37,784 bases of DNA from contig QYQM01000088.1 in NCBI GenBank assembly GCA_007280905.1, positions 1 to 37,784 on the forward strand. Direction: 5' to 3'. Below, one piece after another: positions 2,763 through 31,226 of this stretch; the first letter of the stretch is position 1, and every line of letters starts with the position of its first letter. The position numbers and the translations under genes were made by a program. This stretch comes from Porphyromonadaceae bacterium (GTDB taxonomy: Bacteria; Bacteroidota; Bacteroidia; Bacteroidales; UBA12481). A model generated the notes under the pieces. That model was not told the DNA's origin, searched no databases, and was given only the letters and a program-made list of their open reading frames with translations.

Positions 2763-2969
2763 TGGAACAAGCGGAACAGATTTCTAACTATCTTATATAT
2801 ATTGTTTTAACTAAAATTTTCTGTTCTATAAGGGCCCGATTCTGTTCCAACCTGTTCCAAATCTTTCGCAACCTCTCCGACCTTGTTCCAACTTGTTCCA
2901 TCTGGTTCCAAAATGAATAAAGATTAAGGCGTTGATTGACTGACTGTTCCATTTGTTCCATTTGTTCCA
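2763..2969. repeat. Phased array of TGTTCCA / TGGAACA heptamers
   Basis: TGTTCCA occurs at 2843, 2853, 2884, 2894, 2945, 2954 and 2963, with the one-mismatch copy GGTTCCA at 2904. The inverse TGGAACA starts at 2763, and the one-mismatch copy CGGAACA at 2772. The distances (9, 10, 31, 10, 10, 41, 9, 9) are close to multiples of one DNA helical turn, so the copies lie on one face of the helix. The spacings are not multiples of three throughout, so the array is not explained by a repetitive peptide. It fits a cooperative protein-binding array such as replication iterons or an operator. Confidence 0.7.
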
Positions 2970-2984
2970 AGAGTAAAAAAGATT

Positions 2985-3311
2985 TCAAAACTTATCGCCC
3001 AAAGTTTGTTGCTCATATTCCTGGGGTGGTACCAGCTTTGAAGGCCGGCCAGGCTTTACGTCAGTTTCCGTGGTTACCTGCTCGATATCCAGCTCATTCT
3101 TATCCACAATGATTGTCGAGGTGCTAAGGTCAATGCCCAGGTCCTTGTACTCAAACACGAATGCCCATTCCGGTTTTGTGCTCCAGATTCCTTCCACTGA
3201 AGCTGTACGGTCCAGGAACCGGAACCTTTGACGCTTCTTACCGAGGAACCGACTATCGTTCCGGAGGTAATGCTCTATGGAGTCAATCGGCTGGATCTTC
3301 TCACTGGCCAT
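2985..3311 (-). CDS. Orphan protein, about 108 residues
   Basis: The frame is open from 3383 (132 residues). ATG 3311 (MASEKIQPIDSIEHYLRND) looks like the better start because the upstream extension is a hydrophobic-basic stretch without the character of the rest. The C-terminus contains DVKPGRPSKLVPPQEYEQQ, a GRPSK motif reminiscent of AT-hook-like DNA-contacting peptides, though one motif is not proof. The central part is beta-rich (WAFVFEYKDLGIDLSTSTIIVDK). It lies directly upstream of the TGGAACA array on the same strand. No family was recognised. Confidence 0.5.
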   Translation of the reverse strand: MASEKIQPIDSIEHYLRNDSRFLGKKRQRFRFLDRTASVEGIWSTKPEWAFVFEYKDLGIDLSTSTIIVDKNELDIEQVTTETDVKPGRPSKLVPPQEYEQQTLGDKF

Positions 3312-7141: not shown

Positions 7142-7588
7142 TTAACGGATTGCGTAATTTGTAGGGTCAATCAAACCATATTTGGTTGTCAGAACCTCAA
7201 AGGCATTTTGTCCATAAAGCCTGCTTTTCCGTTGGCTCTTGCTCCCATAATACCGAAGTAACCTTTGAAAAAGGTAAAACCGGAGTCGTCTTTTGCTCAT
7301 TGCCGGATAGCTAACCCCCTTTATCTCAAAGAAGTTGAGCCATCCCCGGATTATCGTATTTAATTCCTTGGCAACATCCTGCGCTTTATAATGTCCGTGT
7401 GACAACAGGTACTCCTTTACTTTATCCCGGATTTTCTGTTCCGACTTTTTACTAGGCATAATGTTCCAGTACTTTGTTTTCCTGCCTTTTATGTCTCTGT
7501 CGTAGCATAGTGATAAAACAAGTTTGTGTAACAATAAGAGATGCAAGATAGGTTTTTCGATTGCTGGTTTCTTTCGTAATATTTTCAA
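7142..7588 (-). pseudogene. Group II intron maturase, C-terminal fragment
   Basis: The 148-residue frame contains a maturase (domain X) region such as MPSKKSEQKIRDKVKEYL and ELNTIIRGWLNFFEIKG, with the C-terminal YGLIDPTNYAIR typical of these proteins. Reverse transcriptase blocks including YADD are missing. The first 30 residues (LRKKPAIEKPILHLLLL) do not look like maturase sequence and are probably unrelated DNA read in frame. It is a truncated, non-functional gene. Confidence 0.8.
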
Positions 7589-7725
7589 ATCATAATGGTA
7601 TATTACCTTGAAAAATTAACGAAAAATGGACAATAGTAAAATTCCGGAAATTGTCTTTGATTTTCAATATCGATCGAAAAGGAAGGAATCTGTAACAAAA
7701 AGTCTTTATCCCGCCAATCGCGTCC

Positions 7726-8405
7726 TCAAATTACATCCTGAGCTTGCAAACGAAACATATCTTGGTATGTGGAAGGGCTCATATTGGAAGATTTCTTAAA
7801 CTGCTCAATAAAATTGGAATAATTGTTAAATCCGACCTCCATACTTATCGTGGATATTTTCATTTTCCCTTCTATCAAAAGTCGCCTTGCGCGCCCGATG
7901 CGCAGGTCATTTAAATATTGAACGAAAGTCTTCTGGGTACGTTCCTTAAAATACCGGCAAAAAGCAGTGGGGGTTAAACCTACAAGATCAGCAACTTGGT
8001 CTAACTTAATAGGGGAAGTGAAATTATTGACAAGATACTGGTAAACTTTATTAAAGCGCTCAAAATCAGCAGAATTTACAGACTCAACAAATCCAATGCT
8101 GCTCAACAGTTCATATTCGTCTGTATCAGTCATCATTTCCAGCAGCATCAAAAGATTGACAATCTTTGGCACCCCCTCCTTATTAAATATCTCTTTAATA
8201 AAATTTCCAATGCGGGTTTGGGAGTTCCCTGTAAATTTTATTCCCCTTCTCGATCTCTCTATCAAATGCCTGATCTTAGTCATCTCTGGCAGGCAAATGA
8301 TGTTACCATCAAATAGCTCTTTTCTGAAATACAGGCAATAACAAACTGCGCGACGTCCTGATAGAGAGTATTCATTGCAGAGGTTCCTTGTTTTATTGTA
8401 ACCCT
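7726..8405 (-). pseudogene. AraC-family regulator lacking its N-terminal domain
   Basis: From about residue VCYCLYFRKELFDGNII onward the frame encodes the second half of an AraC regulator, with a complete double helix-turn-helix (KLDQVADLVGLTPTAFCRYF and ISTISMEVGFNNYSNFIEQF). The frame stays open upstream of ATG 8283 to about 8405, where a stop closes it. The roughly 90-residue N-terminal cupin part that the intact paralogue at 12521 has is absent, and there is no room for it before the kinase gene ending at 8458. It therefore looks like a deletion product. A shortened DNA-binding protein from ATG 8283 could still be made. Confidence 0.75.
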
Positions 8406-8457: not shown

Positions 8458-9954
8458 TCATGCCTTCCAGAACTGCTTCAGAACAGGGTACAACTGCTTA
8501 TAGGATTCGAATTTTTTGTCGTAAAATCTTGCATTTTCCGGATTCGGAGAGAAAACTTCATTTTCGGTCCTGCTATGCCTTAACAACTGCTCAACTGGAA
8601 TTTTCTCAATGGCGCTGCGGGCAAGCAGGGTTGCTCCATAGCACCCGGCTTCCTTAATGTCACGTACGATGATCTTTTTGTTCAGCACATCTGCTTTCAG
8701 TTGGGTCCAGTCATTGTTGCGGGTGCCTCCTCCTGTGGCAATGAAAGTATTGATCTTCATCCCTGATTTCTCCATCAGCTGAAGGTTAAGTTTCATTTCC
8801 AGAGCAACTCCTTCGAGGAGTGCCTTGGTAATTTCGCCTTTGGTTGTCGTAAGTTGAATTCCGATAATAACTCCTTTAGCCCTGGTATCAAAATAGGGAG
8901 TCCCGGTGGCTGAGAAATAAGGCAGCACAAGCAATTCAGTAGGTGATGACGGCATTGCATCCAGGAGCAGGGAATAAGGGTTTTGTCCCGTTTTTACCGC
9001 CCGGGCAATTTCTGACTGTCCGAGTTCATCGCGCATCCAGCGAAGGATGTTGCCCCCTGTTAAGCTGTAGGCAACATTAGTATACTTGCCCTTTATTGTA
9101 TAATCGTAGCAGCAAAGGTTATTCCGTTGCAACTCATCAGAAAAGCTTGGTTTATCCAGCACCGGACAGAAACATTCCACCGTACCGGTGGCATACATAC
9201 ACATACCCGGTTCAATCACTCCTGCTCCCAGTGCCGCACAGGTTTGATCATGTCCCCCGGCCACAAGCATAACGGGGTTTTTAAATCCGATCTTACTGCC
9301 TGTCTCCAACCCGATGGTTCCGGTTATTTCTCCGGGTGCTACCGGAAATGCCAGTTTATCAGCCGGCAGTCCGGCAGCTTCAAGTATTTCATTGCTCCAC
9401 TGATGCCTGATCACATCAAACAGCATGGTGCGGCCTGCCATCGACCAGCTGATCTTTGGTTCAAGCCCTACCTTATAATGAAACAGATCTTCAAAACACA
9501 GGAAATACCTGGTATTTTTCCATACATCCGGTTGATTTTCTTTTATCCATAGTATCTTATAAAGGGTGAAAAGCGGGTGGGGGGTATGACCTGTGATGTA
9601 ATAAATCTTTTTTGTCCCGAAATCTTTGCTCCAATTCCATGCGATATCCCTGGCCCTGGCATCGAAAGAAACCATGGCATGTCCCAGTGTTTTTCCGTTC
9701 TTTCCAATGGGTGTAAATGCTTCACCCTGACTGGAAATGCTCATGGAAACAACCGGATCGGAGATACAGGAATTTACCTCGGCTATCACCTCAAAACACT
9801 TGTTGATCACTTCATCCGGATTGAGCTCTGACCAGTCCGGGTGAGGATGTAAAACAGTGTATTCCAGGAATGAGGAGGCAAGTTCCTTCCCTTCGGTGTT
9901 GAATACAACTGCTTTACATCCACCTGTTCCGATATCTAAACCCAGATAACTCAA
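8458..9954 (-). CDS. FGGY-family carbohydrate kinase (xylulokinase-like)
   Basis: The 498-residue protein has the full FGGY architecture: the N-terminal ATPase fold with GLDIGTGGCKAVVF at residues 5-18, substrate-side SISSQGEAF, the catalytic base Asp236 in GGHDQTCAALG, and the C-terminal adenosine motif FIATGGGTRNNDWTQLKADV. It resembles xylulokinases most, but FGGY specificity cannot be read from these motifs. It is the third gene of an aldolase-isomerase-kinase operon, 11 bases after the isomerase stop. It should phosphorylate the ketose made by the isomerase, before retro-aldol cleavage. Confidence 0.92.
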   Translation of the reverse strand: MSYLGLDIGTGGCKAVVFNTEGKELASSFLEYTVLHPHPDWSELNPDEVINKCFEVIAEVNSCISDPVVSMSISSQGEAFTPIGKNGKTLGHAMVSFDARARDIAWNWSKDFGTKKIYYITGHTPHPLFTLYKILWIKENQPDVWKNTRYFLCFEDLFHYKVGLEPKISWSMAGRTMLFDVIRHQWSNEILEAAGLPADKLAFPVAPGEITGTIGLETGSKIGFKNPVMLVAGGHDQTCAALGAGVIEPGMCMYATGTVECFCPVLDKPSFSDELQRNNLCCYDYTIKGKYTNVAYSLTGGNILRWMRDELGQSEIARAVKTGQNPYSLLLDAMPSSPTELLVLPYFSATGTPYFDTRAKGVIIGIQLTTTKGEITKALLEGVALEMKLNLQLMEKSGMKINTFIATGGGTRNNDWTQLKADVLNKKIIVRDIKEAGCYGATLLARSAIEKIPVEQLLRHSRTENEVFSPNPENARFYDKKFESYKQLYPVLKQFWKA

Positions 9955-9965
9955 TGCATTCGTTT

Positions 9966-11408
9966 TTAAAGTTCAGTAATTTCATACCCAAGATAGCGGG
10001 TACATGCTTCGCGCAGGGCTATAGCAACCTGACCTGGTGTTACACTCACATGATGGCGGTAACCGTTGTATCCGATTTTATAGAGTTTTTCCTGCAACCG
10101 GTCAATTTTAGCCACGCCTCCGCAGCCGAAAAATCCTTCCTGAATGGGATCGCTCGTGAATTCCCCTTCGCCCATGTAAATATGGAGTTTGCCGTCCTGT
10201 GTTTTGGAACTGGCAAAGGTGAGTTTATTCGGAGCTATTCGTCCGACATTACAGCCGAAACCGCATCCGGCACCCAGTGCCTTGGCAAACATGGGATGAT
10301 CAATAACCTCACCTTTGGCAGTCATCAGACTTTGTGGCACCGGTCCGCAATGGAAGAGTATGCATTTTTCAGGATCTTCACCATAATTGTTATTCCAGTC
10401 GAGACAGGTTGCGGGTTTGCCCGATGCCAGGTTGAGCGCATACATGGTGATGGCATTGCAAATATCCAGCTCGCAGGCGGCTGGGAATCCACGATCGTTA
10501 ATTTCACTCAGTAGAACACAGGGCGCCACACCAAATTCTTTTTCCATTTCAATCCAGCAACGCAAGGCAAGCGTATTGAGGCCGTACTCAGCGATGATCT
10601 CATCAATAACAACACCAAAACGTACCAGGTTTTCAAATGATTTCTCAGGAACTTTTTTGAAGTTTGTATAATTCCTGAGTCTCTCGGCCTTTTCTTTTGC
10701 CGTGGCGGAGGCTATGTCAAGCTTCCGTACGCGGCTGAATACCTCTGAAAGATCGAGTACTTCAGTAGTAATACCATATTTCTGCAGTGCCAGCTCGTCA
10801 TAACGGACGGTTTTGAATGCAGTGGTTCTTGCTCCTATTGCTCCCACTGTCATTCTTTTCATACCATTAACAATTTTACAAACCTTGTCAAAGGCATCAA
10901 TATGTCTCTCGAATTCTTCTGAAAAAGGATGCACCGTATGCGGCGGAAAAACGGTATACGGCAATTGATACTGATAGAAAACATCCATAATGGAGAATTT
11001 GCCGCAGAAAGCATCACGGCGCTGGTGGAATCCCATTTTATCAAGCTCATCCGGATAGGCCAGGACATAAATAGGTACTCCGGCATCCTGCAGCGCTGAA
11101 ACAGCACCGGTTTCATCGCCAAAATTGGGGAGGCACAGGATCACGCCATCGAATTTACCACGGTTATCATCCAGAAATTTTGCGTATTTGCGGCCTTCTT
11201 CAGGACTTTCAACTGCTCCGAAACGGGTCAGGTTGCTGTCCATTATCAGAAAGTCATGGCCAAGTTTTTTCAGGATTTCACTTAATTCTATGCGGGCCTC
11301 GCCAATGAGTGATTCCGGGAAGAATCCACGGTTACCGAAAAAGAGCGCAAAAGTTGATTTCTGTTTTTTCATAAGAGTGGCATTTTGGTATTTACAGTTA
11401 TTTGACAT
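9966..11408 (-). CDS. L-fucose/L-arabinose isomerase-like aldose-ketose isomerase
   Basis: The 480-residue protein has the fold signature of the FucI/AraA-like isomerases. The C-terminal part carries the metal-site pattern: Glu313 (AACELDICNA), Asp337 (TCLDWNN) and a His at 452/453 (YRHHVSVTPGQ). It is shorter than FucI (about 590 residues), like the L-fucose isomerase-like proteins of uncertain substrate. ATG 11408 has an AAGG ten bases upstream; ATG 11372 (MKKQKSTFALFFG) is an alternative start closer to the conserved sequence. It lies 24 bases after the aldolase and 11 before the kinase. It should convert an aldose or 6-deoxyaldose to the ketose used by the kinase. Confidence 0.88.
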   Translation of the reverse strand: MSNNCKYQNATLMKKQKSTFALFFGNRGFFPESLIGEARIELSEILKKLGHDFLIMDSNLTRFGAVESPEEGRKYAKFLDDNRGKFDGVILCLPNFGDETGAVSALQDAGVPIYVLAYPDELDKMGFHQRRDAFCGKFSIMDVFYQYQLPYTVFPPHTVHPFSEEFERHIDAFDKVCKIVNGMKRMTVGAIGARTTAFKTVRYDELALQKYGITTEVLDLSEVFSRVRKLDIASATAKEKAERLRNYTNFKKVPEKSFENLVRFGVVIDEIIAEYGLNTLALRCWIEMEKEFGVAPCVLLSEINDRGFPAACELDICNAITMYALNLASGKPATCLDWNNNYGEDPEKCILFHCGPVPQSLMTAKGEVIDHPMFAKALGAGCGFGCNVGRIAPNKLTFASSKTQDGKLHIYMGEGEFTSDPIQEGFFGCGGVAKIDRLQEKLYKIGYNGYRHHVSVTPGQVAIALREACTRYLGYEITEL

Positions 11409-11432
11409 TGAAATACCTTGTATGAAAATAAA

Positions 11433-12389
11433 TTAATACTGAAAAATTCGGCTCGCCGATCCGGCAATTTCAAGCTGGTTGTTGATTATGTCGAGCATTT
11501 CGTTATATACGGCTTCCTGAGCTGCCTTTGCCGAATCATTCATCAGTCTTTCGTAGGGTTGCCTTATGGCTGTTGCAATGTTGATTTTGGCAATACCCTT
11601 TTTAAATGACTGCATAAGGTATTCTTTGGCAATTCCAGTTCCCCCATGCAATACAAGCGGAATATGCACAGCATCATTGATTTTCTCAAGCTGGGGAATA
11701 GCAAGGCGGGCTTCAATCTTTTTTTCGGTTCGGGTGGCAGCGGATATGGCACCATGAATATTGCCTATGGCTACTGATAACCAGTCGGTTCGGGTCTCCC
11801 GGACAAACCGTTTCGCTTCTGCAGCTGAAGTAAATCCTTTTCCTGAGGCAAAAAGATCTTCATACGGAGGTAAAGGACCTGATTCATGACCCATTACAGC
11901 TCCCAGCTCAGCTTCAACCGGTATTCCAGCCTGGTGGGCCAGTTCAATCACAACGCGGGTTTTTTCGATATTTTCTTCAAGCGATAGCCTTGATCCGTCG
12001 ATCATTACCGAATTATATCCCAAGTCAATGGCCTCAGTGACAATTCTCTCAAAATCAGTCAGGAGGTTGTCCTCATCAATTACCGGTACATGATCAAGGT
12101 GAAGTCGCGTAAACCGTATATCTTTCAGTTTCTCATATTCATCCCGGATGGATTTCATACTGCCTGATTTGAATTTTATCCATTCGAGCCGGGCAACCAT
12201 AATGAGCCCGAAAGTATCAGTATCTCGTAAAGCCCTCACCACGGGTTCCATCATAGGCAGGTAGGGGATATTGAATCCGGGAATGACAATACCTTTTTTC
12301 AATGCATCGTTTAAAATCATTCCAGTGCCGGCATCAGAATTTAACATATACAAACAAATTAATTGTGAATACAGGGTAATGTCATCCAA
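11433..12389 (-). CDS. Class II ketose-phosphate aldolase (FBA/GatY family)
   Basis: A zinc-dependent class II aldolase of the fructose-bisphosphate/tagatose-bisphosphate family. Visible active-site residues, numbered from the long start, are Asp99 and His100 (LHLDHVP), Glu159/161 (PVEAELGAV), His212 (AIGNIHGA), His248 (VLHGGTGI) and the phosphate loop K268-I-N270-IATAIRQ. In place of the NxDT of fructose-bisphosphate enzymes it has NIAT, as in GatY-like members, so fructose 1,6-bisphosphate need not be the substrate. Residues 1-14 look unlike the family; ATG 12347 or 12320 is a more likely start. First gene of the operon with isomerase and kinase, divergent from the AraC gene. It should cleave the ketose phosphate to DHAP (or GAP) plus an aldehyde. 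Confidence 0.9.
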   Translation of the reverse strand: MDDITLYSQLICLYMLNSDAGTGMILNDALKKGIVIPGFNIPYLPMMEPVVRALRDTDTFGLIMVARLEWIKFKSGSMKSIRDEYEKLKDIRFTRLHLDHVPVIDEDNLLTDFERIVTEAIDLGYNSVMIDGSRLSLEENIEKTRVVIELAHQAGIPVEAELGAVMGHESGPLPPYEDLFASGKGFTSAAEAKRFVRETRTDWLSVAIGNIHGAISAATRTEKKIEARLAIPQLEKINDAVHIPLVLHGGTGIAKEYLMQSFKKGIAKINIATAIRQPYERLMNDSAKAAQEAVYNEMLDIINNQLEIAGSASRIFQY

Positions 12390-13969: not shown

Positions 13970-14772
13970 ATGAGCAAAACAATCGATATTAAATTTGAAG
14001 CTAATCCGTCGACTCCAAAATACCGGCAGATTATTGAGACCATTTTGCAGAAAATACAAGTTGGCGATTTGAAGAAAGGAGAGAAGATTCCATCATTGAA
14101 TATGCTTTGTAAACGATATGGGTTATCGCAGGATACGGTATTAATGGCTTACAATGAGCTGAAAGCAAAAGGAATTATTACATCTCAGGTAGGGAAAGGT
14201 TATTATATACAGAATGAAAATACGGACTTCAAACACAATATTCTACTTGTTTTCGATCGCCTTTCTGCCTACAAGGAAGAAAACAATATAAAGACCTTTT
14301 CCCTTTTGTTTGTCAGGACTTTGAGCGGGATATTTTCCGTATCCTAAAAAAGAATGATTATTTGGTAGACAAGTATCAGCGAATGGTTTTAGTTATCCGG
14401 CATCAGAATTCACATTTCAGAGATATAGTTACCGGATTTCGTGATTTTTGCAAACAATATCCCATTGATTATTTTGTAGTTAATGAAATCAAGTCGTTCG
14501 AAATAAAACCGGCCGATACTTTTATTGTGGTCGACGACCGGGATCTGGAGTTTCTGGTTCGTTATTCCATTGACAAGAAAATGGTTCTTGGAACAAACCT
14601 GGGAATCATTTCCTATAATGAAACTCCTTTAAAAGGAATAATCGCCACAGGAATTACCACCATCTCCACCGACTTTGCCCAAATGGGAAAAAGTATGGCT
14701 GAGATGGTTTTAAGTGGTAAACGCGAAAAGATAGATAATCCATTTATTATGCATGTACGTAATTCCTTCTGA
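13970..14772 (+). pseudogene. GntR regulator with LacI-type sensor domain, internal deletion and frameshift
   Basis: Frame one (13970-14347) gives an intact GntR winged helix (YRQIIETILQKIQVGDLKKG, SLNMLCKRYGLSQDTVLMAY, GIITSQVGKGYYIQ), then NILLVFDRLSAYKEE. Frame two, readable from about 14310 (QDFERDIFRILKKNDYLVDK), continues to 14772 with the second half of a periplasmic-binding-protein-like sensor (GIISYNETPLKGIIATGITT). Full-length relatives are about 330-350 residues; here about 260 codons remain, so around 70-80 residues of the sensor between SAYKEE and DFERD are missing and the frame is broken at the junction. Bacteroidetes proteins of this type control fucose or arabinose genes. This copy should be inactive, although a DNA-binding fragment could persist. 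Confidence 0.82.
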
Positions 14773-14806
14773 CAGAATAGGAATCCAAGTTATATTTTCT
14801 CTGATA

Positions 14807-15379
14807 ATGAAACATTTGAAAATTATTAGTTCTCCCGTAGAACTTAGGTTGTTAGATTTTGGCTTAAAAGGTGATCTGATTGTCAATCAAACCCGATTCA
14901 TAAAGGATATGGCAGGGATTTTTCAGGATGTGGAGACCTTTTATAAACTGGATCCGGAACTACCTGTGTATACGGTACAGGCTTGGCTCCCGGTTAAGGA
15001 GGGCACTGAGGGCGGATTGTTCTTTGGAACTTCTACCATTTTCCCCGGGAAAGTTAACCAGGAATATTTTATGACAAAAGGCCATTTTCATGAAAAATCC
15101 GATCGGGCTGAATTCTATTTAGGAGTGCAGGGGACAGGGATGCTCATTTTGATGGATCGGGCCAGGAATACCTGGGCCGAAGAGGTATTTCCGGGTAGTC
15201 TCCATTACATTGATGGAGATATTGCTCACCGTTTAGCCAATACTGGCCGCGATAATCTGATTGTCGGTGCCTGCTGGCCTTCGGATGCCGGTCACGATTA
15301 CGAGGAAATTTCCTTAACCGGTTTCTCAGCCAGATTGATTGATGTTGGCGAAAAGGCTGTTCTGGTCGAAATGAATTGA
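14807..15379 (+). CDS. Cupin-type glucose-6-phosphate isomerase
   Basis: From ATG 14807 the protein has 190 residues and matches the archaeal/bacterial cupin phosphoglucose isomerases: TKGHFHEKSDRAEFYLGVQG gives the metal ligands His93, His95 and Glu102, and DIAHRLAN gives His141. The frame reaches back to 14753, but the upstream codons overlap the preceding pseudogene and do not resemble the family. It interconverts glucose 6-phosphate and fructose 6-phosphate, or an analogous sugar phosphate. It is one of the few intact genes of the eroded sugar locus. A transporter fragment starts 25 bases later. Confidence 0.88.
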   Translation: MKHLKIISSPVELRLLDFGLKGDLIVNQTRFIKDMAGIFQDVETFYKLDPELPVYTVQAWLPVKEGTEGGLFFGTSTIFPGKVNQEYFMTKGHFHEKSDRAEFYLGVQGTGMLILMDRARNTWAEEVFPGSLHYIDGDIAHRLANTGRDNLIVGACWPSDAGHDYEEISLTGFSARLIDVGEKAVLVEMN

Positions 15380-15404
15380 TTTATTAATAGTTAGTCTTAA
15401 AATT

Positions 15405-15734
15405 ATGAAAGTCTATGTCGTTTTAATCTCTGTGGTTGCAGCTCTGGGCGGCTTATTGTTTGGTTTTGATACCGCCGTCATTTCAGGTGCCATAAATTTT
15501 ATTCAGCCCTATTTTGGCCTGACCGAAGCGGGGCTCGGCTGGACCGTGAGCAGTCTGCTATTTGGCTGCATTGTAGGGGTATTTATAGCTGGTGTGGCAG
15601 GAGACAAATATGGTAGAAAAAAAATTCTTATGCTGGCAGCCATGATGCAGCTTTGCTTTGTCCGAAGCCCGATTTACTGGTTTACGCCGATATGGCCCGT
15701 TGGGAAATTCAGCTGCGGATGCGGCTGCATTTGA
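15405..15734 (+). pseudogene. MFS sugar porter, first two to three helices only
   Basis: Residues 1-80 are the start of an XylE-like sugar/proton symporter: ALGGLLFGFDTAVISGAINF, then the loop motif GDKYGRKKILML after helix 2. Homology ends at about 15645 (LAAMMQLC). The last 25 residues are the adjoining isomerase sequence read in the wrong frame. Full proteins have about 450-500 residues and twelve helices, so at least ten helices are gone. A deletion joined this gene to the mannose-6-phosphate isomerase fragment. Confidence 0.85.
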
Positions 15735-17761
15735 TTGATAACCTGGGGATAAAAAATCGCGATACCGCGGACTGGATGTTGCAATATAAACAAGGCTATT
15801 TTGTGGATTGGAGAATTTGCGACCGGTTGAAGAAGACCTTGTTCGACCGATGGGATTTTCTTCTCGATATCAACAAACCCGATCAGCCTAAACTCGTTGA
15901 AGGAAAGGCTATTCTGGAAGGATTGAAAATAGCCGCAGGCCGTCCTTTCAGCGTTGTTCCGTTTTTTGATCCCGGGCTATGGGGAGGGCAGTGGATGAAA
16001 GGGGTTTGCAACTTAGATCCTTCTGCTCCAAATTATGCCTGGTGCTTCAACTGCGTGCCTGAAGAGAACAGCCTGTTGCTGAAGTTTGGCAATGATGTGA
16101 TCGAAATACCTTCGATTAATCTGGTATTCCGCCACCCACGCGAATTACTGGGCGATGCGGTTCACGAGCGCTTTGGCGATGAATTTCTCGACGTTGTCCG
16201 CGGATATAAAGACAAAGATTTCCCTTTGGATTTCTTAGTTCTTGATATGGGATGGCATACCCGTGACGATGCAGTGTCAGGAATGGGAATCATAAACAGG
16301 TTGTATTGGACAGGATACTCCTGGAATAAGAAATTAATTCCGGATCCGGCTTATCTGATTAAAAAATTACACGACGACGGTTTGGCGGTTACGCTTAACG
16401 ATCATCCGCACGATGGAATCCGCCGTCATGAAACAGCCTATCCTGATTTCATGAGAGCTATGGGTGAAGATCCTGCTACCGGAAAAGATATTGTTTTCAA
16501 TGCCGGGAGCAAAAAATACATGGATAACTTTTTTAAATACGCGCACGGACCACATGATTCTATCGGAGTCGATTTCTGGTGGCTTGATTGGCAGCAAGAT
16601 TATCTGATACCTTCTGTTGAGGGGTTTCCTGGAGTGAAACATCTTCAGTGGCTGAATGAACTGTACTATCAGAATTCCTGCCGCAACGGCAAGCGTGGCC
16701 TGATTCTTAGCAGATACTCAGGGTGGGGAGGACATCGTTATCCGATCTATTTCAGTGGTGATGCCACCGGTAATTGGGATGTTCTGAAATTTGAGATTGA
16801 TTTTACGACTTCCAGCAGCAATCAGGGTTGTTTTTACTGGTCGCATGAGATTGGTGGATTTTACAGCAATCGCAACAACGAACTTTATGTTTGCTGGAGC
16901 CAGTTCGCTTTGACAACGAGTACCATGCGTGTCCATTCTTCAAAAGATCCAAATACAGATAAGCGTCCTTGGTTATGGGGTGAGCAGGCAGAAAAAGCGT
17001 TAAGGAAAGTTTATCATTTGCGCTCTCAGTTGATGCCCTATACTTATACGTCGGCCTGGCAGCTTTACGATAAAACCTTGCCTTTAAACAGGGGTATGTA
17101 TTTGGAATACCCTGAAGTAGAAGAGGCTTTCCACCAGCCTCAGCAATATATGTTTGGCGATTTATTGCTGGCTGCTCCGATATCCTCACCCGGTAAAGGA
17201 GAAAACCTGATAGCTTCTCAAAAAGTATGGTTCCCGGCCGGAGAAAAATGGTATGACCTGTTCAATCATAAAGCCTATCCTGGGGGAGGAGTGATCGAAA
17301 CCGAGGCCGATATATACAATACACCTTTATTTGTTAAGGGAGGTGCTCCATTACCATTACAGCCTTATTCTCAGCGGCCTGCAACAGAGGTGTTGGATAC
17401 ACTCATTGTGCGATGCTATCCAGGTATCCCCGGAGAGACTCGTTCCTATTCATTATATGAGGATGATGGTATTTCTCCGGATTTTGAGAAAGGATATTCG
17501 GCCATTGCGCCCATGTCATATACCGAGCTTGAAAATGGCGGGAAATTAATTATTGCTCCATTTCAGGGTCAAGGGTTTCCTAGTCAGGTTATGAACAGAT
17601 GCTATCGTATTGAGTTACCCGTGGCACAGCTAAAAAGTGTGACCATAAACGGTAAGAAAGTGCGAATACTGTATGATGATGAGGTTAAATTAAGTTATGT
17701 GTTAACCACCCTTTTACCTGTTACCAGAGAAATTCTAGTACAGACAACGAACAATAAATGA
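15653..17761 (+). CDS. Chimera: mannose-6-phosphate isomerase piece fused in frame to GH31 catalytic domain
   Basis: The 702-codon frame (TTG 15653 or ATG 15692) has two unrelated parts. Residues 1 to about 177 match the middle of the long class I mannose-6-phosphate isomerase-like proteins (LLVYADMARWEIQLRMR; GYFVDWRICDRLKK; WGGQWMKGVCNLDPSAPNYA; EIPSINLVFRHPRELLG) and stop before the metal-binding QVHP region. From about 178 (LDVVRGYKDKDFPLD) it is a GH31 catalytic barrel with nucleophile Asp312 (VDFWWLDWQQD), acid/base Asp370 (YFSGDATGNW), and C-terminal beta domains to the stop. The GH31 N-terminal beta-sandwich and any signal peptide are missing. The join at about 16187 is in frame. It is probably a deletion product; whether it makes a stable protein is unknown. 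Confidence 0.85.
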   Translation: MLCPKPDLLVYADMARWEIQLRMRLHLIDNLGIKNRDTADWMLQYKQGYFVDWRICDRLKKTLFDRWDFLLDINKPDQPKLVEGKAILEGLKIAAGRPFSVVPFFDPGLWGGQWMKGVCNLDPSAPNYAWCFNCVPEENSLLLKFGNDVIEIPSINLVFRHPRELLGDAVHERFGDEFLDVVRGYKDKDFPLDFLVLDMGWHTRDDAVSGMGIINRLYWTGYSWNKKLIPDPAYLIKKLHDDGLAVTLNDHPHDGIRRHETAYPDFMRAMGEDPATGKDIVFNAGSKKYMDNFFKYAHGPHDSIGVDFWWLDWQQDYLIPSVEGFPGVKHLQWLNELYYQNSCRNGKRGLILSRYSGWGGHRYPIYFSGDATGNWDVLKFEIDFTTSSSNQGCFYWSHEIGGFYSNRNNELYVCWSQFALTTSTMRVHSSKDPNTDKRPWLWGEQAEKALRKVYHLRSQLMPYTYTSAWQLYDKTLPLNRGMYLEYPEVEEAFHQPQQYMFGDLLLAAPISSPGKGENLIASQKVWFPAGEKWYDLFNHKAYPGGGVIETEADIYNTPLFVKGGAPLPLQPYSQRPATEVLDTLIVRCYPGIPGETRSYSLYEDDGISPDFEKGYSAIAPMSYTELENGGKLIIAPFQGQGFPSQVMNRCYRIELPVAQLKSVTINGKKVRILYDDEVKLSYVLTTLLPVTREILVQTTNNK

Positions 17762-17792
17762 TCTGTCAAACAAACTTTTATTAATTGGAACG

Positions 17793-19355
17793 ATGAAAAA
17801 GATTCTATCGTTGTGGACCGCCGGGCTGTTTTGCAGCTTATTGAGTGCGCAAGTACCATTGGATATGGTAAAACAGACAGAGTATGTGGCTAAAAATCCA
17901 TTTAAAACCTCCACTTATAAACAGAGTCCTCTTCCGATCTTTTCTCAAACGAAAGATCTCTTACCGCAGCCGATATTCGATGAGGACAAAGGTTACCTGG
18001 ATATGTATTGGAAAACATGGGAATTGGCTTTCGGACGATTCAGGCAACCAGCACCAGGATCTCCCTTTGTTTCAAACTACATTGATGAGGCCTTTAACGA
18101 AGCACTATTTTTGTGGGATACCGGGTTTATGACCATGTTCTGTAATTACGCATACCGGTATGTTCCCGGTATACAGTCACTTGACAATTTTTACTACTCT
18201 CAAATGGCTGATGGTGAGATTGTTCGCGAGATAGACGAAATCACCGGACAACCACGATCGAAATGGGCCGCTCCCGGAACGGCAGCCAGTTTGAACCACC
18301 CGATACTGGCCTGGGCGGAGCTGGAGAGTTTCAGAATTACCAATGATATTGAGCGTTTAAAGAAAATTTACTATCCGTTGGTTGCCTATTATTATGCTTA
18401 CAATAAGATCAAAGATCCTATCAGTGGTTTATATTACGGATCGTGGGCCAGCATGGATAATTCACCCCGCCTCCCGGGCATGCTGTGCAGCATTGACACC
18501 AGCTCCGAAGTGGTACTTTTTGCCCGATGTTTAGCCTCTATCGCTAAAATAACAGGATTGGATGAGGATAGCAAAAAATTCAATGCAGATGCAGACCAGC
18601 TGACCTCACTCATTAATGGTAAGCTCTGGAACGATAAAACCGGTTTCTATTACGACTTGAATGACAAGGAGCAAATACATAATGTCAAGACGATAGCAGG
18701 TTACTGGACTCTTGTGGCAGGTATTGCAAACAAGGCCCAGGCCGGCAGGCTTGCAACAGAGTTGAAAGACACTGCTGAATTCAAACGTACCCATATGGTT
18801 CCGACTGTGCCTGCCAGCGAGCCCGAATTTGATCCCCGCGGGTCCTACTGGAGGGGGGGAGTTTGGACCCCAACCAATATAATGGTGATAGAGGGCCTGA
18901 AAAAGTATGGTTATGACCAATTGGCCAGCGAGATAGCATTAAACCACCTTGAGAATGTGTACAAAATCTTCAAAAAAACCGGGACAGTCTGGGAGTTTTA
19001 TCAGCCGGACTTTGTTGAAATCGGTTTCTCGGAGGGGCATAAAACCAGGGCCGACTTTACCGGATGGTCCGCTTGTGCACCGATAAAACTGTTTATCGAG
19101 CATAAGATAGGCGTCAATATTGATGCACCCAACAATATGCTGGTGTGGAACATTGCCAGTAATGACAATGTTGGTATCAATAAATTGGCCTTTGGCAGCA
19201 ATACTGTTGACATTATTTGCCATAAACCTGTGGGTAAAAGTGGTAAAAGAGCTGTGGTAATTACTGCTCAGTTTCCCTATACTCTGATCATCCATTACCA
19301 CAACCGTACCATTACCAAAAAAATTAAACAAGGGGTCACAAACTTTACAATTTAA
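17793..19355 (+). CDS. GH63/MGH1-like glycoside hydrolase, secreted
   Basis: The 520-residue protein has a signal peptide (MKKILSLWTAGLFCSLLSAQ) and an (alpha/alpha)6 toroid of the mannosylglycerate-hydrolase/GH63-like group: ALFLWDTGFMTMF with Asp109, the SWASMDNSPRLPG block, FDPRGSYWRGGVWTPTNIM, and KKTGTVWEFYQPD with a candidate second carboxylate. The length is normal and the frame is intact. It starts 31 bases after the chimeric GH31 gene and ends 4 bases before the next gene, so it was probably part of one operon of hydrolases. It should act on alpha-linked glycosides outside the cytoplasm; the substrate is unknown. Confidence 0.85.
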   Translation: MKKILSLWTAGLFCSLLSAQVPLDMVKQTEYVAKNPFKTSTYKQSPLPIFSQTKDLLPQPIFDEDKGYLDMYWKTWELAFGRFRQPAPGSPFVSNYIDEAFNEALFLWDTGFMTMFCNYAYRYVPGIQSLDNFYYSQMADGEIVREIDEITGQPRSKWAAPGTAASLNHPILAWAELESFRITNDIERLKKIYYPLVAYYYAYNKIKDPISGLYYGSWASMDNSPRLPGMLCSIDTSSEVVLFARCLASIAKITGLDEDSKKFNADADQLTSLINGKLWNDKTGFYYDLNDKEQIHNVKTIAGYWTLVAGIANKAQAGRLATELKDTAEFKRTHMVPTVPASEPEFDPRGSYWRGGVWTPTNIMVIEGLKKYGYDQLASEIALNHLENVYKIFKKTGTVWEFYQPDFVEIGFSEGHKTRADFTGWSACAPIKLFIEHKIGVNIDAPNNMLVWNIASNDNVGINKLAFGSNTVDIICHKPVGKSGKRAVVITAQFPYTLIIHYHNRTITKKIKQGVTNFTI

Positions 19356-19359
19356 AAAA

Positions 19360-20016
19360 ATGAAAAATCAGTTTGTAAAAACGATTTCCATTGCTCTGTT
19401 CCTTGGAACAGCTGTATTTGCTCAGAAAACCGCTACTCCTTTGGCACAGAGCAAAGTGGATTTCCAGTTCTCGCCGCCTGAATGGCAAACGGCCATCTGC
19501 CTGCCGGATGACCCCCACAAGTCGCTGGTGGCCCGGGATGCGATGACATCATTCTCGTACAGGTAAAAAATCCGGGTACGCAGGCACGAACTTTTCACCC
19601 GCAGCTGATTGTAAACACCGTATTGCCATTGACTTTTCGCGTTGATAAGCAGAAAGCGGTGGTCAACAATCTGGAGACTGTAACGACCTCCTTAAAGATG
19701 ATCGGCATCACAGAGGAAACTGAAGCACAGCGAAAGATCCAACTGGAACCCCTCACCGTTCCTGCCAACCGAGTGGACCAAGCCTGGCATGGTCACAAAA
19801 CTGAACGGAATAGCAACGCCCTTCGGCGCACTCACGATGGAACTGAAAATCTCCGACGATGGCCGAAGTGCCAAACTGCGTGTTGAGCCGCTGTCCGATT
19901 CATCGTGCAAAAATATCATCGTACACCTCAACGGCTGGACGAAGGACGTAGGTGAAAAAGTGATCAAACTGAATCCCCGGAAGCATAATGAATTCACCAT
20001 TCCAATCAAACTTTGA
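19360..20016 (+). pseudogene. Secreted carbohydrate-locus protein, shredded (several frames)
   Basis: The gene starts normally with a signal peptide (ATG 19360, ISIALFLGTAVFAQ) and FQFSPPEWQTAICLPDDPHK, then loses its frame at about 19545. Coding continues in a second frame (DDIILVQVKNPGTQARTFHP to IQLEPLTVPANRVD) and, from about 19785, in a third (LNGIATPFGALTMELKISDD, ending LNPRKHNEFTIPIKL at 20016). The start and end look genuine but only about 220 codons remain of what is probably a much larger protein, so internal deletions are likely. The N-terminal motif recalls DUF4450-type glycosidase-associated proteins, but I am not sure. Confidence 0.7.
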
Positions 20017-20166: not shown

Positions 20167-20179
20167 CCCTGGAAATCAA

Positions 20180-20213
20180 GCGGTTACTTCTCAAAAAGAA
20201 GTAACCGCTTTTC
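20180..20213 (+). terminator. Rho-independent terminator after tRNA-Val
   Basis: GCGGTTACTTCT (20180-20191) and AGAAGTAACCGC (20197-20208) form a perfect 12-bp stem with loop CAAAA, followed by TTTTC. Confidence 0.88.
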
Positions 20214-22504: not shown

Positions 22505-22579
22505 TAAGTTTAAAATTATGAATCATGGTTATTTACCATAAGGCTTTAACAAGCGAAATGGGGAATAGTTTATACCGGT

Positions 22580-22901
22580 AACTGAAGGTGGCTTACAGCT
22601 CTTTTCACCTTTTGATGGACTCTGTCAGCCTGCTCTGGATGCTGTACCGGAACATATCGATATTAAGGAGGTTAAAACCTACCTTGAAAGTTTGCCGGAA
22701 GTTACGGGTGTGCATGATTTGCACATCTGGGCCTTGGGGACGACTGATGCAGCCATTACTGTGCATTTGTTAAGGAACGACCAGACCGATGTTAACTTCA
22801 TAAAGACCATCCAGCAGGGGCTGACTAGTCGCTTCAGTATCGGCCATGCCACTATCCAGGTTGAATTCGGGAGTAGCGAGGAATGCGGAATTGAATTTTA
22901 A
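22580..22901 (+). pseudogene. Cation diffusion facilitator (CzcD-like), C-terminal remnant
   Basis: The last quarter of a CDF metal exporter is readable in two frames. The first gives FHLLMDSVSL, the end of the last helix. After a shift near 22640 the second gives ALDAVPEHIDIKEVKTYLES, PEVTGVHDLHIWALGTT and the regulatory cytoplasmic domain to EECGIEF at 22901. The transmembrane part with the metal site is absent, and no start codon precedes it. Full proteins have about 300 residues. It converges with the DUF302 gene. Confidence 0.85.
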
Positions 22902-30490: not shown

Positions 30491-31226
30491 TCAAGTTGCG
30501 CTATTTAGATATATTCTTTTAATGAATTTCTTCTCAACAGTAAAATAAAATGAAAAGATCAAAACTTGGTTTATGAGTGCAGCTAATAAACCGATTTCTG
30601 AGCCATACCATATAGCAAGAGCATATGCCTGGAGTTGACCAATTCCGTACATTGGATTACTCAGAAATTTGTAAGGCCCAGTTTCAACAAACTCAGTGAT
30701 TTTTTTCCCCAGAAACATATCTTTCCAATAATAAATATCAATGGAAACAACTTTCGCCGACCAAATTTTAATAAAAAAATCCAGCTAAGATCATGACAAT
30801 CAATATTATTTGTAATATTTCACGGTCCACAAAGTTAAATAAACTGCCGTGAGTGGTCGCGGCAATAAAACCCAGACTGGCAGTATTATGAAAGAATAAT
30901 ATTCCAAGCACTGCTTCGAAAGACAGATAACCTTCCTCTTGATTACCCCATCTTTTAATAAACCAATGCCGGTAGCCATGTTCAGAGAGGACCAGAAAGA
31001 TAAATCCCAAATAGAGGACCTCGGAAACCAGAAAATAAATCACTCCTATTGTATTGTTATCCTGATAATTGAATGCTAATAAATACGAAAAGGTAATGGA
31101 AATTGTAATTGCTATAACTCTCGGTAAGGTGGCATGTTTTGGTACAAAACCGGCCATAGAAATTAAAAGTAAACAGTAATTAAAAAAATCTGTCGAAATT
31201 TTGATGACTCGCGTTCGAAATATCAT
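30491..31226 (-). pseudogene. Polytopic membrane protein with methyltransferase-like C-terminus, frameshift in a T7 run
   Basis: The minus-strand frame from ATG 31226 gives several transmembrane helices (ATLPRVIAITISITFSYLLA; GVIYFLVSEVLYLGFIFLVL; ILQIILIVMILAGFF) and stops at 30768 just after a run of seven T. Removing one T continues the same protein as FFIKIWSAKVVSID and then YWKDMFLGKKITEFVETGPY, KFLSNPMYGIG, the signature of PEMT/isoprenylcysteine methyltransferase-like membrane enzymes, ending at 30491. The combined length would be about 245 residues. Decay, phase variation by slippage, or a sequencing error would all explain it. It is the last gene of the TonB receptor operon, 37 bases after the PagL-like gene. 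Confidence 0.75.

Follow-up and report, generated by a model that had tools for sequence, protein, structure and literature searches.

Remnants of a sugar-use cluster and an open isomerase-like/GH31 chimeric frame, a probable by-product of recent deletions in a Porphyromonadaceae bacterium

The stretch of DNA analyzed here (the window, 37,784 nucleotides) corresponds to contig C180 of its own genome (G000), a draft of 4,394,321 bases in 185 contigs whose completeness is given as 99.27%. Open reading frames and Pfam profiles place the chimeric frame that concerns us within a sugar-use cluster. On the minus strand, positions 8458-12389 carry kinase, isomerase and aldolase genes, named by reading their proteins, next to which lies the gene of an AraC-type regulator. 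On the plus strand, the order is the remains of a GntR regulator gene, a glucose-6-phosphate isomerase gene, a porter stub, a piece of an isomerase-like gene, a GH31 remnant, an MGH1/trehalase-like glycosidase gene, and the remains of a further glycosidase-like gene. The glucose-6-phosphate isomerase, which is of the cupin type (14753-15379; PF06560, profile 4-171 of 182), appears intact, as does the MGH1/trehalase-like glycosidase (17793-19355, 520 aa, with a signal-like start; PF22422). The counterpart of the latter in G004, a genome of the same genus, has equal length (520 aa) and 72% nucleotide identity, and is preceded there by other genes. A terminator-like hairpin stands after the cluster on the plus strand (20178-20210); it is a consensus match only, of a kind found at 13 sites against 6.5 expected.

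Several further features of the window deserve mention. A group II intron maturase-domain fragment (PF08388) adjoins an AraC-type regulator on the minus strand (7145-8403), and of this regulator the DNA-binding half alone is recognisable. A zinc/cation transporter at 22569-22898 (plus strand) is apparently reduced to its C-terminal dimerisation domain (PF16916). Two overlapping minus-strand frames (30494-31226) resemble one membrane methyltransferase with a frameshift near 30770-30784, PF04191 being found in the second frame and no Pfam match in the first. Finally, a minus-strand frame at the contig end (36752-37774) reads as a group II intron-type reverse transcriptase.

The porter stub occupies the beginning of a plus-strand frame of 109 aa (15405-15734), whose first 81 residues match MFS sugar porters of about 450 residues (15405-15647; PF00083, profile 2-85 of 452); five other porters in the same genome are open frames of 440-509 aa. 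Sequence comparison places a deletion-like join (join 1) at 15640-15655, where the porter gives way, out of frame, to an isomerase-like gene, identity to which extends leftward to 15646 (TGCAGCTTTG, as in the relative L014). A second plus-strand frame, of 702 aa (15653-17761), overlaps that of the porter stub, which ends at 15734 inside it. Residues 1-178 of this longer frame match the interior of a longer protein, and alignment to open relatives identifies 15653-16186 as about residues 158-337 of an isomerase-like protein of approximately 600 aa. Besides the window, this part has 15 matches, all in open frames of 539-691 aa; it is 70% identical to an open paralogue in its own genome (contig C91, L024 6735-8543) and 69% identical to the copy in G004. 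The C91 copy and 12 further loci made up the 13 relatives used for comparison. Genes of this family (L024, L006-L018) adjoin, in three genomes, a gene that reads as peptidyl-prolyl isomerase-like.

The first-pass annotation of this DNA had described three genes collapsed into one, the middle one being a piece of mannose-6-P isomerase. Three gene pieces are indeed joined, but in two overlapping frames rather than one, the porter stub's own frame closing at 15734. The isomerase name is a loose one: residues 242-466 of an open homologue do match the mannose-6-phosphate isomerase of B. subtilis (PDB 1qwr, E 5.7e-10), but no Pfam or NCBIfam match was obtained for the two family members scanned. While the C-terminal half of the open homologue resembles 1qwr, much of that match lies beyond the piece in the window, which ends near residue 337 and takes in an N-terminal stretch of no known family. 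The piece also ends before the LSLQVHP stretch of the open relatives, whose LQVHP residues we take to be the metal-binding cupin residues of mannose-6-phosphate isomerase.

Within the 702-aa frame, a second join (join 2, plus strand, 16178-16187, inside GATGAATTTC) leads in frame from the isomerase-like piece into a GH31 glycosidase (16187-17761) that lacks the signal peptide, the N-terminal domain and the first barrel strand. From about residue 176, the frame matches PF01055 (profile 22-327), then PF21365 and PF17137, and the GH31 part is 57% identical to a protein of Pedobacter petrophilus. Ten of the 11 GH31 relatives have a signal peptide-like start and a domain of around 200 residues before the barrel; L026, the closest of the relatives, has no clear signal-like start. 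The match to the Pfam barrel profile begins at profile position 2 in L028 and L026, and at 22 in the chimera. In the predicted structure of L028, a strand (216-221) immediately precedes the helix in which the join position falls (226-238); the predicted structure of the chimera keeps this helix (173-187), the counterpart of strand 216-221 is absent, and the remainder of the predicted fold is still recognised as GH31. Residues D312 (WWLDWQQ) and D370 (FSGD) are invariant across 18 aligned sequences. D312 is presumably a catalytic position of GH31, and D370 aligns with the position changed in 7wjc. By sequence, the best solved relative of the barrel is the GH31 alpha-1,3-glucosidase of Lactococcus lactis (PDB 7wj9 group, E 1.7e-87), whose catalytic positions are kept in the chimera but whose first 230 residues or so have no counterpart in it. 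The first-pass observation is borne out: alignment to relatives recovers both of its joins, near 15645 (out of frame) and 16187 (in frame), and the 702-codon open frame, the intact GH31 active site, and the foreign N-terminus without an export signal are all there.

Some features of the structure predictions and alignments were set aside. Low confidence at residues 355-405 of the chimera was dropped as a sign of damage, an intact control being low at 401-418 and 430-446. The isomerase part scored mostly below 50 in a prediction whose alignment was without isomerase relatives, and is uninformative. Moreover, a global alignment that paired the isomerase piece with the N-termini of GH31 proteins was taken as spurious and not used.

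Collapse of the same kind, which the first-pass annotation had missed, is found in the GntR gene upstream and in the gene that starts at 19360 downstream, both on the plus strand. When aligned to nine homologues in open frames of 328-347 aa, the GntR gene resolves into an N-terminal piece with the DNA-binding domain (13970-14284; PF00392, full profile 1-64), a middle piece of 27 bases between two joins (14285-14311, NIKTFSLL), identified from only about 8 residues, and a C-terminal piece with the ligand-binding half (14314-14772; PF13377), which is 24-38% identical to its nine matches in relatives. The join at about 14284 keeps the frame and that at 14300-14313 breaks it; compared with L151/L152, about 23 residues are missing at one of them and about 50 at the other. 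The gene after the MGH1-like gene encodes 864 aa in G004 and is represented in the window by three colinear pieces (19360-19535, 19527-19763, and 19766-20010, the last reaching the gene end). About 697 bp are missing at the join between the first two (join 3, 19527-19536), and about 1244 bp at the next (join 4, about 19755-19770). In G005 and G006 this 864-aa gene is spaced nearly as in G004, as it is in G001 within the stretch fetched, and it is open over 864 codons in G006 and over 869 translated codons in G005. An open paralogue is found on contig C174 of the same genome; this copy, of 749 aa, was considered as a second in-frame deletion, and is more readily taken, to judge from the alignment, for a shorter paralogue.

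At least six deletion-like joins are thus found in about 6 kb (13970-20010), across five genes (GntR, porter, isomerase-like, GH31 and 864-aa gene) that are shortened in comparison with open relatives. An intact porter-isomerase-GH31 order was not found in any genome searched. We infer that these three genes were once whole and side by side in this order, in which case joins 1 and 2 would each have removed at least about 1.5 kb.

We then turned to the sequence that the flanking genes have in common at the joins. At the position of join 2, every one of the 13 isomerase-like relatives has Glu-Phe, and six of them, as well as seven of the 11 GH31 relatives, have Asp-Glu-Phe; the DNA GATGAATT itself occurs in the isomerase-like relatives L011 and L012 and in the GH31 relatives L029, L031 and L032. 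Across 117 pairs (13 isomerase-like by nine GH31 relatives, with L027 and L107 excluded because their match begins elsewhere), the shared in-register run reached up to 10 bases, with a median of 3 and at least 6 bases in 28 pairs, whereas 28 shifted registers gave medians of 0-2 and a longest run of 7. At join 3, 16 pairs shared 3-6 bases, a run of 6 being reached by 0.9% of shifted pairs; at join 4, two of 12 pairs had a shared run, of 5 and 8 bases, and the remaining ten were at the level of shifted pairs. Ku was found in none of the eight genus genomes and, among 14 control genomes, in one (B. subtilis), which makes Ku-type end joining unlikely. The frame is kept at two of the six joins (the first GntR join and join 2) and lost at four; as this is the share expected by chance, the open 702-codon frame is no sign of constraint.

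To place the breaks in time, we considered stop codons and the pattern of substitution. The retained pieces comprise 1255 codons with zero stops, and a random substitution in them creates a stop 4.75% of the time, so that neutral change since the breaks is probably below about 1.7% per site (a rule-of-three bound), which makes a recent date for the deletions probable. Across the three remaining pieces of the 864-aa gene (212 codons, with G001 left out for the last piece), the window has 8 private changes at first, 5 at second and 18 at third codon positions. The first two positions together take 42%, against 52% in G004, 64% in G001, 61% in G006 and 69% in G005 for the same gene. The pN/pS of these pieces is 0.25 against G004, 0.25 against G006 and 0.31 against G005, the corresponding values among relatives being 0.21 (G004 and G006) and 0.39 (G004 and G005); the intact MGH1-like gene has a lower value, 0.18. 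This purifying pattern, together with the stop-free codons and the bound derived from them, agrees with the very recent deletion product that the first-pass annotation had offered as one of two readings.

The isomerase-like piece gives a pN/pS of 0.23-0.27 against five relatives, and its paralogue on C91 gives 0.13-0.14 against three of four relatives and 0.31 against the fourth. Window-private changes in the piece fall on codon positions 1 and 2 in 79% of cases, compared to 43-64% in four close relatives. Read naively, this skew would speak against clean purifying selection; it may reflect relaxed selection or just the greater distance of the piece, which is a more distant paralogue, so that its whole branch counts as private and the skew was not used for dating. 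The piece departs from the consensus at one of 50 otherwise invariant columns (0-6 in the 13 relatives). The GH31 part departs at 14 of 146, the second highest of twelve, in a set dominated by a close group; its relatives range from 0 to 18 (18 in L027, 7 in L026, 6 in L028, 5 in L107 and 0-3 in seven others). Overall, the selection picture is clean for the downstream 864-aa gene and mixed for the isomerase piece, for which greater distance may account. All considered, the breaks are young compared with the divergence of species, and such purifying pattern as there is dates from before them.

Broken genes do not look to be spread throughout this genome. Short coding segments, a count that includes true small genes, number 5.8 per 10 kb in the window; among 21 other stretches (20 sampled, plus C91), 20 gave 0-4.0 and contig C95 gave 14.9, the highest density of the 22 sequences scored. 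On the minus strand of contig C95 (L184), a DUF218 gene is present in two copies (680-921 and 7492-7835), one longer and one shortened; the shortened copy lacks about 103 bases, on either side of which the two match at 85% and 95%. A further minus-strand open frame of this contig (5862-6518) begins like a DegT aminotransferase (profile 6-41 of 360) and ends in a part without a Pfam match that reads like a nucleotidyltransferase, and another DegT piece (profile 209-264) lies at 2869-3123.

How the joins came about can be explained in different ways. The draft comprises 185 contigs, and short shared sequences, where some of the joins lie, are also favoured by overlap-based gap closing; both points would suit an artefact of assembly or library preparation, in which case the organism would have whole genes and the joins would have arisen in silico or through chimeric amplification. 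We nevertheless consider an assembly chimera unlikely. The two GntR joins are only about 27 bases apart, so a single short read should cross both, and the losses at joins 3 and 4 (0.7 and 1.2 kb) are larger than a usual short insert. Furthermore, at a completeness of 99.27%, the missing parts were not found elsewhere in the assembly other than as paralogues: with the N-terminus of a GH31 relative as query, the only match there was the barrel start of the window itself, and the middle portion of the 864-aa gene turned up only as paralogues on C174 (46-58%) and C166 (24%). A single burst, for instance the repair of a shattered segment, that produced most of the six joins in one event is more doubtful still. 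Every lesion is a mid-size deletion and the pieces are stop-free, so all are recent, as such an event would have it; however, the GntR and 864-aa gene pieces have kept their order and orientation, and no relative is known to carry an intermediate state that would order the joins in time.

The other reading offered by the first-pass annotation, a new fusion gene under constraint, would make of the isomerase-like N-terminus and the GH31 barrel a cytoplasmic enzyme. Its 702 codons are open, its GH31 catalytic positions are kept and so, mostly, are the conserved GH31 columns, but this conservation can predate the joins. In addition, the first barrel strand, the N-terminal domain and the signal-like start are missing, the porter stub's frame ends inside the chimera, and the neighbouring genes are broken likewise, with frame kept at two joins in six. 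Nor was the joint seen elsewhere. In 59 relatives, the isomerase and GH31 parts match separate genes, and no convincing match spans the joint; one weak match, in G021 (25% identity, query 115-680 of 702), crosses it within an 802-aa frame, and five weak matches in frames of 325-352 aa end at query 182-190. The joint sequence itself (38 bases, up to 3 mismatches) was found, among 12 family genomes including its own, in its own only. A search for a start signal for the 702-codon frame gave promoter-like matches in the region only at chance level. Taken together, we regard a constrained fusion gene as highly improbable.

We therefore favor, with good confidence, the view that the chimera is a by-product of deletions at short repeats in a redundant sugar operon that has recently been decaying; it has the look of ordinary gene decay and not of a newly functional gene. 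The operon being dismantled would have comprised the GntR regulator, glucose-6-phosphate isomerase, porter, isomerase-like, GH31 and two further glycosidase-like genes, and would have become dispensable; open paralogues of the isomerase-like gene (C91), the 864-aa gene (C174) and the porter (five) are present in the same genome. Deletions between short direct repeats, most likely through slipped mispairing or annealing, would then have shortened its genes. One such deletion, between two GATGAATT-like copies encoding Asp-Glu-Phe, would have cost the isomerase-like gene its end and the GH31 gene its start, and the frame across it happens to be open. To judge from the sequence and the predicted fold, the product is most likely inactive, having lost the first barrel strand, the N-terminal domain and export. 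Counted against decay are the two genes between joins that look intact and the kept catalytic positions of GH31.

Deletion is a usual bacterial route for clearing broken genes, and in the survey of Salmonella pseudogenes on which we draw (Kuo and Ochman 2010, PMC2916853), the counts we use give 346 of 378 pseudogenes with one inactivating change and 32 with more than one. Among those with a single change, short deletions account for 141 cases and point changes for 133, and insertions make up 17%; by subtraction, larger deletions come to only about 13. The locus described here resembles these young pseudogenes in being recent, confined to one genome and subject to removal by deletion. It differs in that small deletions, insertions and nonsense changes dominate in those counts, mostly as one hit per gene, while the window has five genes with six larger deletions and no stop. 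Given how few larger deletions the survey counts contain, this is a somewhat unusual mix, although the survey counted differently.

The locus offers a clean snapshot of an operon early in decay, in which the joins are readable, the pieces unblurred and open relatives at hand for comparison, and it illustrates that a perfect catalytic motif in an open frame can be wrongly read as a new enzyme. It is also conceivable, though we think it improbable, that this lineage deletes unneeded genes by an unusually active short-repeat deletion process, acting in bursts on one locus. If so, mid-size blocks would go before point decay sets in, leftovers would be welded into open chimeric frames, and contig C95, with its shortened gene copy and apparent in-frame chimera, may be a second such spot.
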